Shown: piece by piece, positions 25,049-29,803 of the stretch | How the letters are laid out: every line of letters begins with the position of its first letter | Numbering within the stretch: the first letter of the stretch is position 1 | Assembly (NCBI GenBank): GCA_029212745.1 | Contig: JARGOL010000001.1 | Span: forward strand, 1 to 64,000 | Source of the DNA: Alcanivoracaceae bacterium | GTDB lineage: Bacteria; Pseudomonadota; Gammaproteobacteria; Pseudomonadales; Alcanivoracaceae | Length of the DNA stretch: 64,000 bases | Direction: 5' to 3' | Notes under the pieces: generated by a model | Database searches by the model: none | What the model was told of the DNA's origin: nothing | Seen by the model: only the letters and a program-made list of their open reading frames with translations | Translations under genes and position numbers: made by a program

Positions 25049-26263
25049 ATGCGCAGAGTAGTGATCACCGGATATGGCATTGTTTCCTGCCTCGGTAACG
25101 ACCGGGACACGGTCACGGAGTCCCTGCGCCTGGGCCGGTCCGGCATCCGCTTCTGCGACGACTATGCAGAACTGGGCATGCGCAGCCATGTCGCCGGCCG
25201 CCCGAGCATTGATCTCGCTGAGCACATAGACCGCAAACCCCGCCGGTTCATGGGTGATGCGGCCGCGTTTGCCTACGTCGCCATGCAACAGGCCATTGCC
25301 GACGCCGGCCTGACAGAAGAACAGGTCAGCAACGAACGCACCGGCCTTATTGCCGGCTCAGGCGGCGCCTCCTCCTTCAACCAGGTGGAAGCAGCAGACA
25401 TCGCCCGCTCGCGGGGCGTCAAGAAAGTCGGGCCATATATGGTCCCACGGGTCATGTCGAGCACGGTGTCAGCGTGCCTGGCCACCCCTTTTCATATCAA
25501 GGGCATCAACTACTCCATCGGCTCTGCCTGCGCCACCAGCGCCCACTGCATTGGTAATGCCATGGAGCAGATACAGCTGGGCAAACAGGACATCGTCTTT
25601 GCCGGTGGCGGTGAAGAGGAACACTGGACACTGAGCATCCTGTTTGATGCCATGGGCGCCCTGTCGAGCAAATACAATGACACCCCCGAAAAAGCCTCGC
25701 GCGCCTACGACGCCAATCGCGACGGTTTCGTCATTGCCGGCGGTGGCGGCATGCTGGTGCTCGAGGAGCTGGAGCATGCCAGGGCACGCGGCGCCCACAT
25801 CTACGCCGAGGTGACCGGCTACGGTGCCACCTCCGACGGACATGACATGGTTGCACCCAGTGGCGAAGGGGCGGCCCGCTGCATGCGCCAGGCGCTGGCC
25901 ACGGTGGAGGGCCCGGTGGATTACATCAACACCCACGGCACCAGCACGCCGGTGGGTGACATTGCCGAATTGAAAGCCATCCGTGAAGTCTTCCCGGAAG
26001 ACTGCCCGGCCATCAGCTCCACCAAGTCACTGTCGGGCCATTCACTGGGAGCAGCCGGTGTCCATGAAGCGATTTATTCGCTTCTGATGATGGAGCATGG
26101 CTTTGTCGCCGGCTCCGTCAACGTGGAAACCCTCGACGAAGCGGCACAGGGTCTGCCTGTAATCACCGCCACCGAAGACCGCCCCATCTCCCGGGTACTG
26201 TCCAACAGCTTCGGGTTTGGCGGCACCAACGCCAGCCTGGTACTGGAGAAGTGGCAGGCCTGA
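25049..26263 (+). CDS. fabB: 3-oxoacyl-[ACP] synthase I FabB
   Basis: A 404-residue condensing enzyme that elongates cis-3-decenoyl-ACP made by FabA. Active-site Cys lies in [18 protein letters not shown] near residue 162; the two catalytic histidines are in [11 protein letters not shown] near 297 and SGHSLGAAG near 333. Length is normal. It is the second gene of the fabAB operon and is followed by a strong terminator. Confidence 0.97.
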
Positions 26264-26329: not shown

Positions 26330-27427
26330 TCAGAACTTGTGTTCAAGACCGACCGAGGCAATATCCAGCTCTGCCGTGGGCTGGAAGCGGCTGGCTGGTT
26401 CAATCTCCACCATGCCGTAGTAGCCATACAGTTTGGACATCTTGCCCAGGGCGAAATCAACGCCCACAGACGTGGACAGTGCCTTGGCATCCGCCGGGCT
26501 GTCCCCGTGCGTACGCTGATGTTGCGCCTTGAACGTGAAGCGCTCCACCGTCAATGCACCGCTGACCAGGGCAGTGTCCTCTTCACCGGCAAAACCGGTA
26601 ACCGGATCACGGTCGTTTTCCTCGGCCCGCTGGTACAACGCGCCCAGCTGCACATCACCGACCTTCAATCCAAGCGCCACGCGGGCAATATCAATGGTGT
26701 CGGTTTTGCCGGCCGGGTTGTCCGCATCGCCCAGCACCAGGTCGTCCAGCTGGTTGCGGCTGATGGCGGCGGCGGCATACAACCCGCCCTTGTCATAGAC
26801 CACAGACGCGGAAACGGTGTCTGCCAGGGTGTTCTCGTTCTGCTGGTCTCCTGGCACGTCAAAATCATCCTGGTTCTCGTTGGCGATGCCCGCCACATTC
26901 ACCACCAGAGCGTCGGCTATCTCTGGCGTGCTGTACTGGATGATGTTGCTGAACCGGTCCTGGCCCACCATCAATTCACCCATGTCAGTGGCATAATCAT
27001 TGAACTGGTCCACCGGGCCTTCGGATTTCTTGAACGGACTGTTGAAACGGCCCGCCTTGAGCTCACCAAAGCTGCCACGCAGACCGGCGTAAATATCGCG
27101 CTGGGAAAACTCACGGCCATTACTGTTGGCCCCGTCATCCACAGCAATCTGGTACTCAGCCTTGTAGAAGCCCTGCAAGCCACCCACCTCAAGATCCAGG
27201 TCGCCTTTTACCCCGAGCCGGGATGCATAGGATGTAAGCGCCCAGGTAGCTGTCCGGTCAGCCAGTAGCGGTGGAACGTTGAACAACGGCACGCCGTTTT
27301 CGTCTTGGGCCGAAACATGCTCGGCCGCCACGTTGACCTTGCCGTAAAGCTTGACGCCCTGCGCCTGAACCATGGCCGGCACGGCCATGGCAGCCAGTGT
27401 CACGCCAAAGAGTGCTGCCTTCTTCAT
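26330..27427 (-). CDS. Gram-negative general porin (Porin_4 type), first paralogue
   Basis: A 365-residue outer membrane beta-barrel with a signal peptide ending AMVQAQG. The mature start GVKLYGKVNVAAEH, the SRLGVKGDLDLEVGGLQGFYKAEYQ block, the loop-3-like GRFNSPFKKSEGPVDQFNDY, and the terminal strand ending HKF with C-terminal Phe are all typical of trimeric porins. Alternating polar and hydrophobic strands continue throughout. It forms a diffusion pore for small solutes. It shares architecture and motifs with the next porin gene, so the two are tandem paralogues. A Pho-box-like repeat lies upstream, which suggests phosphate-starvation control. Confidence 0.88.
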   Translation of the reverse strand: MKKAALFGVTLAAMAVPAMVQAQGVKLYGKVNVAAEHVSAQDENGVPLFNVPPLLADRTATWALTSYASRLGVKGDLDLEVGGLQGFYKAEYQIAVDDGANSNGREFSQRDIYAGLRGSFGELKAGRFNSPFKKSEGPVDQFNDYATDMGELMVGQDRFSNIIQYSTPEIADALVVNVAGIANENQDDFDVPGDQQNENTLADTVSASVVYDKGGLYAAAAISRNQLDDLVLGDADNPAGKTDTIDIARVALGLKVGDVQLGALYQRAEENDRDPVTGFAGEEDTALVSGALTVERFTFKAQHQRTHGDSPADAKALSTSVGVDFALGKMSKLYGYYGMVEIEPASRFQPTAELDIASVGLEHKF

Positions 27428-27468
27428 ATCCCCGATCCTCTCGTCCTTCCCATTAAACGCAACTGACA

Positions 27469-27492
27469 GCAGTCACCTCTGGGGGTGACTGC
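27469..27492. promoter_or_regulatory. Inverted repeat upstream of the first porin gene
   Basis: GCAGTCACC (27469-27477) and GGTGACTGC (27484-27492) are perfect 9-bp arms around a 6-base loop. It lies about 42 bases before the porin ATG and just downstream of the Pho-box-like repeat. There is no T run, so it is more likely an mRNA leader hairpin or an operator than a terminator. Confidence 0.5.
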
Positions 27493-27504
27493 GGACACCA
27501 ATAT

Positions 27505-27522
27505 ATGACAGTAGGATGACAA
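27505..27522 (-). promoter_or_regulatory. Pho-box-like direct repeat before the first porin gene
   Basis: On the minus strand the sequence reads TTGTCAT-CCTA-CTGTCAT: two 7-mers separated by four bases, matching the PhoB consensus CTGTCAT-N4-CTGTCAT at 13 of 14 repeat positions. It lies 78-95 bases before the porin start, on the coding strand. No convincing -10 box is placed 10-11 bases downstream, so the exact promoter is unsettled. Confidence 0.55.
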
Positions 27523-27542
27523 TTTGCAGCCCTTTGGGCAGA

Positions 27543-27568
27543 CAAAAAAAGCCCACCGGAGGTGGGCT
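27543..27568 (-). terminator. Rho-independent terminator of the second porin gene
   Basis: On the minus strand AGCCCACC, loop TCC, GGTGGGCT is followed by seven T residues (plus-strand A run at 27544-27550). It lies about 80 bases after the stop of the upstream porin gene. Confidence 0.85.
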
Positions 27569-27650
27569 GACAAGCTGTCACTTGCGTCGAGGAAAAGTCG
27601 GGGGCACGGCGTCCTGCCGGAACCCCCTTGTCGGACGGGTTTGCCGTGGT

Positions 27651-28814
27651 TCAGAACTTGTGCTCGAAACCAAAGCCGAGGGTCGTGTCAGACAGAGTCT
27701 TCTTCGCCGTCAGCGGGTTGATGGCATTGATGCCGTCCTGTGTCAGGCCGGTGTCGGCTTCCACTTCGGCGTAGTAGGCGTAAACCTTGGAGGCCTTGGC
27801 CATCTTGTAGTCCACACCGAACGCGGTCAGCGTCAGGGAAGGATCGTCAGACAGCTCGCGCGGGTTGTTGTTCAGCGCGTCTTCTTTCAGCAGCTGGCTG
27901 GATTCGGTCATGCCGTACTGGGCCTTGAACTTCCAGCGATCCATCTTGAAGGCACCGCTGAGGACGGTGGAGGTTTCTTCACCCGCTTTCACGATGGTCG
28001 GGAAGCCGCTCTTGTCGTCATCGGTCTCTTCTGCAGTCTGGTGCAGCAGGCCGAGCTCAAAAGCGTCGGTCTTGTAGGCAAGAACCAGGCGCAGGATGTC
28101 CACCGGCGCACCGGCGGTATCATCGATGATAAGGGTCTTGTCATCGTTGTTCTTGTCCATGGCCAGTGCAGCATACAAACCGCCCTGCTCGAACACGGCA
28201 GAGATGGAGGTCTTGTCGGCCAGGCCGTTGTCGTTCTTGGCCTTGTTGTCCAGCCCGCCATTCAGGTCATCGTTTTCTGCCGGCATGATGGCGATGTTCA
28301 GGGTAACCATATCAGCCAGTTTGGGCGTGCTGTACTGGATGATGTTGCTGGCACGGGTCTCACCACGCAGGATCGTCTTGATATCACCGTCGATATCGTT
28401 GAACTGGTCGATCTTGCCCTGGGAGGTCTTCAGCGGGGTGTCGAAGTTACCCGCCATGATGGTACCGAAACCACCCTTGAAACCACCGAAGATGTTGCGC
28501 TGCTTGAACACAGCGTTGCCGTCATCAACAGCAATCTCGTACTCGAGCTTGTAGATGGCGGTCAGGTTGGCCACGTCCAGGTCGAAGTCACCCTTGACGC
28601 CGAGGCGGGAGGCGTTTGAATCAAGCTGCCAGCGGTCCTGGCTGGCTTCCTTGAGCGCATCAACAGCGAGCGTGTCATCGTACTCGGACAGCTCCGGCTC
28701 ATACTGCTCCAGAGACACGTTTACCTTACCGTAGACCTTCGGGCCGTCAGCCAGCGCGGCACCAGGAAAAGCGATTGCGGCCCCCACAGCCATAGCAAGC
28801 AGTTTCTTGTTCAT
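27651..28814 (-). CDS. Gram-negative general porin (Porin_4 type), second paralogue
   Basis: A 387-residue outer membrane porin. The signal peptide ends GAALADG, and the mature protein begins PKVYGKVNVSLEQY. SRLGVKGDFDLDVANLTAIYKLEYE and GNFDTPLKTSQGKIDQFND align with the same blocks of the neighbouring porin, and it likewise ends in HKF. It is strongly acidic (many Asp/Glu). GAGGAG nine bases before the second ATG decides the start at MNKKLL; the first ATG at 28823 lies directly on the ribosome site. Three Pho-box-like 7-mers precede it. Confidence 0.88.
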   Translation of the reverse strand: MNKKLLAMAVGAAIAFPGAALADGPKVYGKVNVSLEQYEPELSEYDDTLAVDALKEASQDRWQLDSNASRLGVKGDFDLDVANLTAIYKLEYEIAVDDGNAVFKQRNIFGGFKGGFGTIMAGNFDTPLKTSQGKIDQFNDIDGDIKTILRGETRASNIIQYSTPKLADMVTLNIAIMPAENDDLNGGLDNKAKNDNGLADKTSISAVFEQGGLYAALAMDKNNDDKTLIIDDTAGAPVDILRLVLAYKTDAFELGLLHQTAEETDDDKSGFPTIVKAGEETSTVLSGAFKMDRWKFKAQYGMTESSQLLKEDALNNNPRELSDDPSLTLTAFGVDYKMAKASKVYAYYAEVEADTGLTQDGINAINPLTAKKTLSDTTLGFGFEHKF

Positions 28815-28849
28815 GTCGAACATCTCCTCAATTAAGCAACGATTTGCGA

Positions 28850-28878
28850 GTAACAGCTTTATGACGCGCTTGTGACAG
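28850..28878 (-). promoter_or_regulatory. Triple Pho-box-like repeat before the second porin gene
   Basis: On the minus strand CTGTCAC, GCGTCAT and CTGTTAC follow each other with 4-base spacers, an exact 11-bp period, as in multi-unit PhoB sites. Matches to CTGTCAT are 6, 5 and 5 of 7. A CTTAAT box about 13 bases downstream could be the -10. A further perfect CTGTCAT with a poor partner lies at 28938-28955. Confidence 0.5.
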
Positions 28879-28970
28879 CGCCGCCGATCTGTTGAGGGGA
28901 GTATGTTCGGGAGGGGTTACCGAAAAGTTGCGCCAGTGTGAAGTTTATATGACAGGCCCGAATGCCGGAC

Positions 28971-29768
28971 TCAGCGCCGTTCCTGCGCTTTCGCCGCACG
29001 CCACAGGGCCTCCAGCTGGTCCGCATCAAGCGTGTCCAGGGCGGTGTCATCAGCGCGCGCCAGGGCTTCCATGTGCCCGAAACGCTGGCGGAACTTGGCA
29101 CTGGCCCGGCGCAGGGCCAGCTCCGGATCCACTTTCAGGTGGCGGGACAGGTTGACCACGGTGAACAGCACATCGCCCAGCTCATCCTCCACGGCGGCCC
29201 GATCCTGTGCCGCCATGGCCTGCGCCAGCTCATCCACCTCGCTGCGCACCTGGTCGAGCACGGGCGCCGTCTCTGGCCAGTCAAAGCCGACCCGCGCCGC
29301 TTTCTTCTGCAGCTTGGCAGCCCGTTGCAGGGCCGGCATGCCGGCCGGCACACCGTCCAGCGCCGAGTCATACGCCCTGCCCTTGTGTACGCGCTCCTCG
29401 GCCTTTATCCGTTCCCAGGTCTGTTTGATGGCACCGATATCGGCACCCTGCTGGTCACCGAAGACATGGGGGTGACGCCGCACCATCTTGTCGTTCAGGG
29501 TGCGCACCACATCAGAAAAATCGAACAGGCCCTGCTCGCTGGCCATCTGGCTGTGGAAGATCACCTGCAACAGCAGATCGCCGAGCTCCTCGCGCAGCTC
29601 AGGATAGTCACGCTCGGCAATGGCCTGCGCTACCTCGAAGGCCTCTTCCACGGTATAGGGCGCCACAGTGTCAAACGTCTGCTGCAGATCCCACTGGCAG
29701 CCGCCATCCGGATCACGCAAGCGCGCCATGATCTCGATGAGGGCATGAATCGGGTGATCGTCAGACAC
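28971..29768 (-). CDS. mazG: Nucleoside triphosphate pyrophosphohydrolase MazG
   Basis: About 265 residues with two MazG (all-alpha NTP pyrophosphatase) repeats. The first has MARLRDPDGGCQWDLQQTFDTVAPYTVEEAFEV and ELREELGDLLLQVIFHSQMA; the second has AVEDELGDVLFTVVNLSRHL, with the metal-binding ExxED-type helices. It hydrolyses NTPs to NMP plus pyrophosphate and lowers ppGpp in E. coli. The start is taken as the GTG at 29768 because GGAGG sits six bases before it, inside the longer open frame. It follows relA by a short gap, the usual relA-mazG order. Confidence 0.93.
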   Translation of the reverse strand: MSDDHPIHALIEIMARLRDPDGGCQWDLQQTFDTVAPYTVEEAFEVAQAIAERDYPELREELGDLLLQVIFHSQMASEQGLFDFSDVVRTLNDKMVRRHPHVFGDQQGADIGAIKQTWERIKAEERVHKGRAYDSALDGVPAGMPALQRAAKLQKKAARVGFDWPETAPVLDQVRSEVDELAQAMAAQDRAAVEDELGDVLFTVVNLSRHLKVDPELALRRASAKFRQRFGHMEALARADDTALDTLDADQLEALWRAAKAQERR

Positions 29769-29803
29769 GGCAACCTCCACTCAGGCCCGGCCTTGCAGCC
29801 GGC

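Follow-up and report, generated by a model that had tools for sequence, protein, structure and literature searches.

Two outer-membrane porin genes lie side by side on the minus strand of the DNA analysed here, the first 64 kb of contig C21 (the window) of an Alcanivoracaceae genome of 3.3 Mb in 25 contigs, and both are preceded by CTGTCAT-like repeats with an 11-bp period. Are these porins controlled by the phosphate-starvation regulator PhoB and, if so, in which direction? Judged from the sequence, the promoter of one of them, por1, probably bears a PhoB operator, with por1 predicted to fill the second-porin place in a relA-mazG-porA-(second porin)-fabB locus. The gene por1 (26330..27427, minus strand; 365 aa; PF13609 E 3.1e-32) lies between the mazG-side porin and fabB, and its neighbour por2 (27651..28814, minus strand; 387 aa), whose start was picked from the sequence as an ATG following GAGGAG, adjoins mazG-relA. 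As initially annotated, the two are adjacent paralogues: both belong to Porin_4 (PF13609 profile scores of 113.1 and 103.5 bits, gathering cut-off 27), and their products are 39% identical.

The PhoB-type box upstream of por1

The por1 box (27505-27522, minus strand) reads TTGTCAT-CCTA-CTGTCAT and thus consists of two CTGTCAT-like units at 4-bp spacing, which match CTGTCAT-N4-CTGTCAT at 13 of 14 bases, just as the initial annotation had counted. The upstream unit, U2 (27516..27522; 6/7), is located 10 bp upstream of a putative -10 hexamer, TATATT (27500..27505), aligned to the TATAGT/TATATT of the class-B-type promoters described below, and the perfect downstream unit, U3 (27505..27511; 7/7), overlaps this hexamer by one base. 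No other site in the window has at most one mismatch, and none arose in 100 dinucleotide shuffles; pattern searches with mismatches found only two such sites in the whole 3.3-Mb genome. The other one, a near-perfect CTGTAAT-4-CTGTCAT (G000:C12:285118-285135; L001 1501-1518, minus strand), overlaps the pstS stop codon ahead of pstC and might serve as a promoter inside the pst operon. A terminator-like hairpin with a T run, found by consensus scan 3′ of por2 (27550..27568, minus strand), suggests that por1 has its own promoter. A GC-rich hairpin also stands where the por1 transcript probably begins (27464-27497, minus strand); compared with shuffles it was not clearly better (z -1.66; 12/200 as good).

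The regulator and its family motif can both be read from these genomes. The host encodes PhoB and PhoR equivalogs (355 bits against an NCBIfam cut-off of 296.2, and 416.6 against 334.2, respectively), and its translations reveal the order pstSCAB-phoU with phoB and phoR nearby. In the interval from phoU to phoBR (L038 9941-12387), translations alone indicate putative arsenic genes next to the phosphate operon, with open reading frames (ORFs) like ArsH, an ACR3-type arsenite permease and a low-molecular-weight phosphatase/ArsC. Our comparison set comprised 46 genomes of the family, among which the host is the sole member of its genus. Across this set the consensus with at most one mismatch returned 136 matches, as compared to 13 for the reversed pattern, and 10 of 30 such places taken as loci preceded phoB (5), pstS (2) or the polyphosphate kinase gene ppk (3). 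A box with no more than three mismatches was present inside 300 nt of pstS in 26/30 loci. A typical phoB promoter of the family reads TTGTCAT-ACAC-ATGTCAC-10 bp-TCTAAT or similar; those of the host read ATGTCAT-AAGC-TTGTCAC-10 bp-TCAAAT (phoB) and ATGTAAT-GCGA-CTGTCAC-10 bp-TAGGAT (pstS), and the host ppk box is weak (full score 16.4).

For a quantitative comparison we trained a PhoB matrix on 92 pstS, phoB and ppk promoters of relatives (effective number 15.3), with all porins and the host genome excluded. The rows came from 36/46 places for phoB, 30/42 for pstS and 31/44 for ppk, and these 97 were reduced by three of the host's own and two misplaced ones (phoB L208, ppk L259). On both strands of the window the por1 box ranked first, with a score of 21.9 as compared to a training median of 21.5. 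A scan of this kind had been proposed as a check on the initial annotation, and for por1 its outcome agrees with what was expected; the second-ranked site, 28861-28878 before por2 (17.0), is situated in the leader and is not conserved, as detailed below. Boxes with two mismatches also occur elsewhere in the host genome shortly upstream of two ORFs (L046 ~2786 and L029 ~1501). From their translations one of these is lipoprotein-like and one resembles ORFs behind the L104 and L106 boxes; they are perhaps further members of the Pho regulon.

Conservation and proposed sign of por1 control

To compare promoters we call por2 and its orthologues class A, and the second porin, found in the porA-fabB interval in many genomes, class B; in 10 genomes of genus g2 class B is located elsewhere. 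The pattern GTCAY-N6-GTCATATANT, allowing no mismatch, gave 23 matches in the 46 genomes, one per genome in 23, and its control gave none. All 23 precede porins, namely 19 class-B Porin_4 genes, three Porin_7 genes and por1 itself. One of the 19 class-B matches stands before a porin with an in-frame TAA (G018:C17:52776-53594), its operator intact. Beyond exact matches, we examined 30 second-porin promoters: 26 of class B, por1, and three entered by hand (L068, L074 and L077) whose porins fall outside the class-B rows by a misplaced start or, for G018/L068, an in-frame stop; three of the 36 places fetched (L166, L167 and L170) yielded no complete porin ORF. Indeed, 28 of the 30 carry a GTCATATA-type signature, 26 of these 28 together with a good upstream unit, and 21/27 boxes of class B and por1 exceed the 99th percentile of random 200-nt stretches. 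The por1 site is therefore conserved at the corresponding promoters of relatives. Two class-B-like promoters (L149 4.0-5.1 kb and L150 3.9-5.1 kb) keep U3 and the -10 with a weak U2 (TACAAAT).

How the box is placed bears on what it might do. The score used to set the alignment frames takes in the -10, which partly builds in a 10-bp distance; we therefore re-measured offsets without an assumed distance, as the position of the hexamer most like TATAAT after the box. The offset was +10 bp in 30/35 phoB promoters. For pstS, +10 was highest on average, yet best in 13/30 only, with 12/30 at -3, and for ppk it was ambiguous (+10 best in 2/31). At class-B promoters the -10-like hexamer overlaps the end of the box in 19 of the 20 scored (of 26), and por1 behaves likewise (offset -1), so its pair does not end some 10 bp upstream of the -10. 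Unit by unit, mean matches of 7 for U1/U2/U3 were 5.7/6.6/1.9 in pstS, 6.3/6.0/3.5 in phoB and 6.8/6.0/5.9 in ppk, as compared to 2.6/5.6/5.7 in class B with por1. The por1 box is thus one 11-bp unit nearer its gene than the box in phoB and most pstS promoters. In addition, a TTG stands 17 bp before the -10 in 17/25 class-B-type promoters.

In the mechanism that we propose, PhoB~P would bind the two 11-bp-spaced GTCA units, U2 and U3, in phosphate starvation, and with U3 overlapping the -10 the bound protein would block RNA polymerase and switch por1 off. A Pho box comprises 22 bp in two 11-bp repeats, and direct repression by PhoB is known for esrL (PMC12351708). A box of that length laid over U2-U3 would cover most of the por1 -10 and should therefore hinder RNA polymerase. 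We consider repression slightly likelier than activation from U2, since the sole strong pair occupies the spacer and reaches the -10, U1 is absent, and the relatives mostly have a TTG at -35. The initial annotation had expected por1 to be induced in starvation; with the box extending into the -10 rather than standing 10 bp upstream of it, repression is no less probable.

Several findings weigh against the operator or against this use of it. Both G045 promoters lack the GTCATATA-type signature, and two further promoters of the 30 have a weak U2. The class-B boxes have a median score of 13.5, as compared to medians of 21.4-22.9 for pstS, phoB and ppk; the porin boxes of the other family genomes have at least two mismatches each, por1 alone having just one; and once the -10 is scored as well, no porin site exceeds 16.5, whereas the lowest value in the training set is 29.7. 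Outside the family (281 of the 293 genomes of the order, 12 being of the family) the operator pattern gave nine matches and its control also nine. The por1 promoter itself has neither U1 nor a TTG at -35, and ppk promoters carry all three units, so that a U3 on the -10 does not in itself mean repression.

The strongest competing explanation keeps PhoB and reverses the sign: PhoB~P at U2, and weakly further upstream, would activate por1 in starvation, with U3 an extra unit as in ppk. We give this an appreciable chance, though less than an even one. U2 stands exactly 10 bp from the -10, where the proximal activating unit of phoB and pstS stands, and ppk and the host phoB likewise have a third unit on the -10. 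Four of the nine out-of-family matches, whose U1 has 4-6 of 7 matches, precede two PstS-type genes, one Porin_4 and one phosphate-selective Porin_O_P porin; the PstS-type calls were made as PBP_like_2, one of them from a 110-residue piece slightly below the gathering score. (These out-of-family sites, L283-L291, are single GTCAY-N6-GTCATATANT matches from elsewhere in the order; at L289, where all three units are good, the locus ends before the gene is reached.) Moreover, published accounts describe a PhoB-activated porin, KpnO (PMC3405095), and production of VCA1008 under phosphate limitation (PMC13157583). Against activation, the mean U1 is 2.6/7 in 25 class-B-type promoters, as compared to 5.7-6.8 in pstS, phoB and ppk, and 17 of the 25 have a TTG where a -35 would lie, as one might expect for an activator-independent promoter.

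That another OmpR/PhoB-family response regulator acts on the second-porin operator seems unlikely to us. The genome encodes several such regulators, and neither the score nor the geometry of class-B sites is that of pstS boxes; however, the operator is built from the CTGTCAT units that also make up the pstS, phoB and ppk boxes, the por1 box scores like these, two of the nine out-of-family matches precede PstS-type genes, and of the eight OmpR-type regulators scanned even the best (211.5) stays below the CreB cut-off of 273. Chance repeats without function are more improbable still. Sites with up to three mismatches are indeed about as frequent in the window as expected (7 against 4.76; 18/100 shuffles reach 7), which fits the repeats before por2, but the absence of one-mismatch sites from the shuffles and the presence of the element in register at class-B-type promoters speak against chance for por1. 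Therefore, with PhoB and PhoR present, the family motif readable and the site conserved at second-porin promoters, PhoB control of por1 is well supported. The Pho-induced pair of the initial annotation is not, the por2 repeats being unconserved and in the leader.

A separate array at the por2 promoter

Three units were reported before por2, and CTGTCAC/GCGTCAT/CTGTTAC is indeed present at 28850..28878 (minus strand). By consensus counting this triplet does not exceed chance. It is placed in the putative 5′ leader since it lies downstream of a conserved -10, CATACT (28900..28905, minus strand), which is found in 34/36 loci. Nor is it conserved as a box: among 29 class-A orthologues, no box with up to three mismatches falls within the last 110 nt, and in four of them such a box stands at -180. 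The triplet is thus neither upstream of the -10 nor conserved, although a stretch shared by several class-A leaders coincides in part with its third unit, CTGTTAC.

What is conserved is a four-unit array of 11-bp period, CTGTCAT/ACTTCAC/GCGCAAC/CGGTAAC (28916..28955, minus strand), which ends 10 bp before the -10 and has its units at 28949-28955, 28938-28944, 28927-28933 and 28916-28922. We aligned 36 class-A and class-A-like loci, host included, without gaps on one template (effective number 6.9), and the pattern that emerged is nnnnCAY-like, ACTTCAC-like, nnGMAAC, nnGTCAY (host: GTAAC), 10 bp, CATACT. The pair CTGTCAT-4-ACTTCAC (28938-28955) is better placed for por2 than the triplet. It scores 13.9 on the PhoB matrix, fourth in the window, and the pairs ACTTCAC/GCGCAAC and GCGCAAC/CGGTAAC score -4.2 and -3.2; the array does not score like the boxes of pstS, phoB and ppk.

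Expression of por2 would then be governed by a separate response-regulator array, possibly bound by OmpR, and whether this is an osmotic OmpR target rather than a PhoB target, as for ompF/ompC-type porins, is in our judgement about evenly balanced. An OmpR equivalog is encoded (420.5 bits against a cut-off of 331), two pairs of the array are negative on the PhoB matrix, and units ending in AC resemble OmpR half-sites. Conversely, the array shares its 11-bp period and its 10-bp spacing from the -10 with PhoB promoters, and the most distal unit is a perfect CTGTCAT in the pair that scores 13.9. The CreB motif, TTCAC-N6-TTCAC, had suggested a further reading of the array, which we dropped given that no scanned regulator reaches the CreB cut-off.

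Promoters, barrels and known systems

Along the minus strand the locus runs relA, mazG, por2, the terminator-like hairpin and por1, and a fabB-like ketoacyl synthase gene (25049..26263, plus strand) is the convergent neighbour after por1, as at many related loci. The upstream neighbour of por2, mazG (28971..29780, minus strand), stands beside class A in 28/29 loci, the exception being G035. The promoters appear to be more constant than the porins behind them. The core of the class-A array gave 41 matches in 39/46 genomes, of which 34 precede Porin_4 genes (25 read directly, nine by position), three precede a Porin_O_P gene (G003, G004 and G016; family tested for the first two), one is in G037 and three are elsewhere (two read). 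For example, the promoters of G003 and G012 are 94% identical over 84 nt, with mazG upstream of both, and the barrels differ. At the loci of these three relatives with Porin_O_P (L294, L295 and L306; 1632-2774 in L294 and L295) the porin directly follows mazG behind a por2-type promoter, and its signal peptide resembles that of class A. The family genome search returned no por1-like match in G003, G004 or G016.

Similarly, G033, G034, G035, G038 and G041 have Porin_7-type genes at the second place, either instead of class B or alongside it (family tested for G033, G035 and G041); in G034 and G038 the operator deviates from the exact pattern. Porin_7 genes adjoin porA in L196, L197/L067 and L169/L199, with the operator as for class-B porins. 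The por1 barrel is probably not a class-B orthologue either, though its operator is of class-B type: an approximately unbiased (AU) test rejected por1 within the class-B core (p 0.00096, a value weakened by the naming of the groups after the first tree) and rejected neither por1 with class A (p 0.46) nor por1 with a third group (p 0.22). The first, larger tree pulls the other way, with por1 on a long branch weakly on the class-B side (86/55), and the AU tests and the tree leave us unsure of the origin of por1, including an origin as a copy of por2. Both promoter types appear, by these comparisons, to predate some of the barrels that they now precede.

The AlphaFold2 model of por1 has a mean pLDDT (predicted local distance difference test) of 85, and its best PDB match is Omp32 (2fgq, E 2.6e-20). 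Both barrels are acidic overall, with computed net charges of -23 and -24, in which we saw no signal of an anion pore, though net charge alone does not decide selectivity. Porins determine what enters a Gram-negative cell. If por1 is switched off in starvation, the Pho response would remove an acidic pore rather than add an anion pore; if promoters are kept and barrels swapped, the conserved unit would be a regulatory slot and not a protein. We offer only tentatively, and with some doubt, the combined reading that a PhoB operator moved one helical unit onto the -10 makes a starvation OFF switch for a general porin, in a locus whose two fixed promoters serve as sockets for repeatedly exchanged, unrelated barrels (Porin_4, Porin_7, Porin_O_P).

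Phosphate-controlled porins are known already as a kind; what is unusual here is an operator placed on the -10, together with promoters that stay fixed while the barrels behind them are exchanged. In the Alcanivorax literature, as far as titles and the opening lines of abstracts go, we found no paper on Pho-controlled porins; the relatives of the host are presumably oil degraders. PhoE of E. coli is a phosphate-controlled porin, and PhoE, VCA1008 of Vibrio cholerae and KpnO of Klebsiella are likewise general porins with a PhoB-type site near the promoter. In contrast to these three, the por1 box extends onto the -10 and has no upstream unit, and both barrels at this locus are acidic overall. 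Pseudomonas aeruginosa has tandem porins, OprP and OprO, which resemble the present case as two adjacent porin genes with phosphate control in question; however, por1 and por2 are Porin_4 genes, and a Porin_O_P porin occupies the por2 place in three relatives. General porins of the ompF/ompC type are controlled by OmpR. The por2-type promoters resemble theirs in having tandem half-sites like those of response regulators, in a genome that encodes OmpR, but differ in the 11-bp period of the array and in a proximal unit 10 bp from the -10, both of which are PhoB-like.

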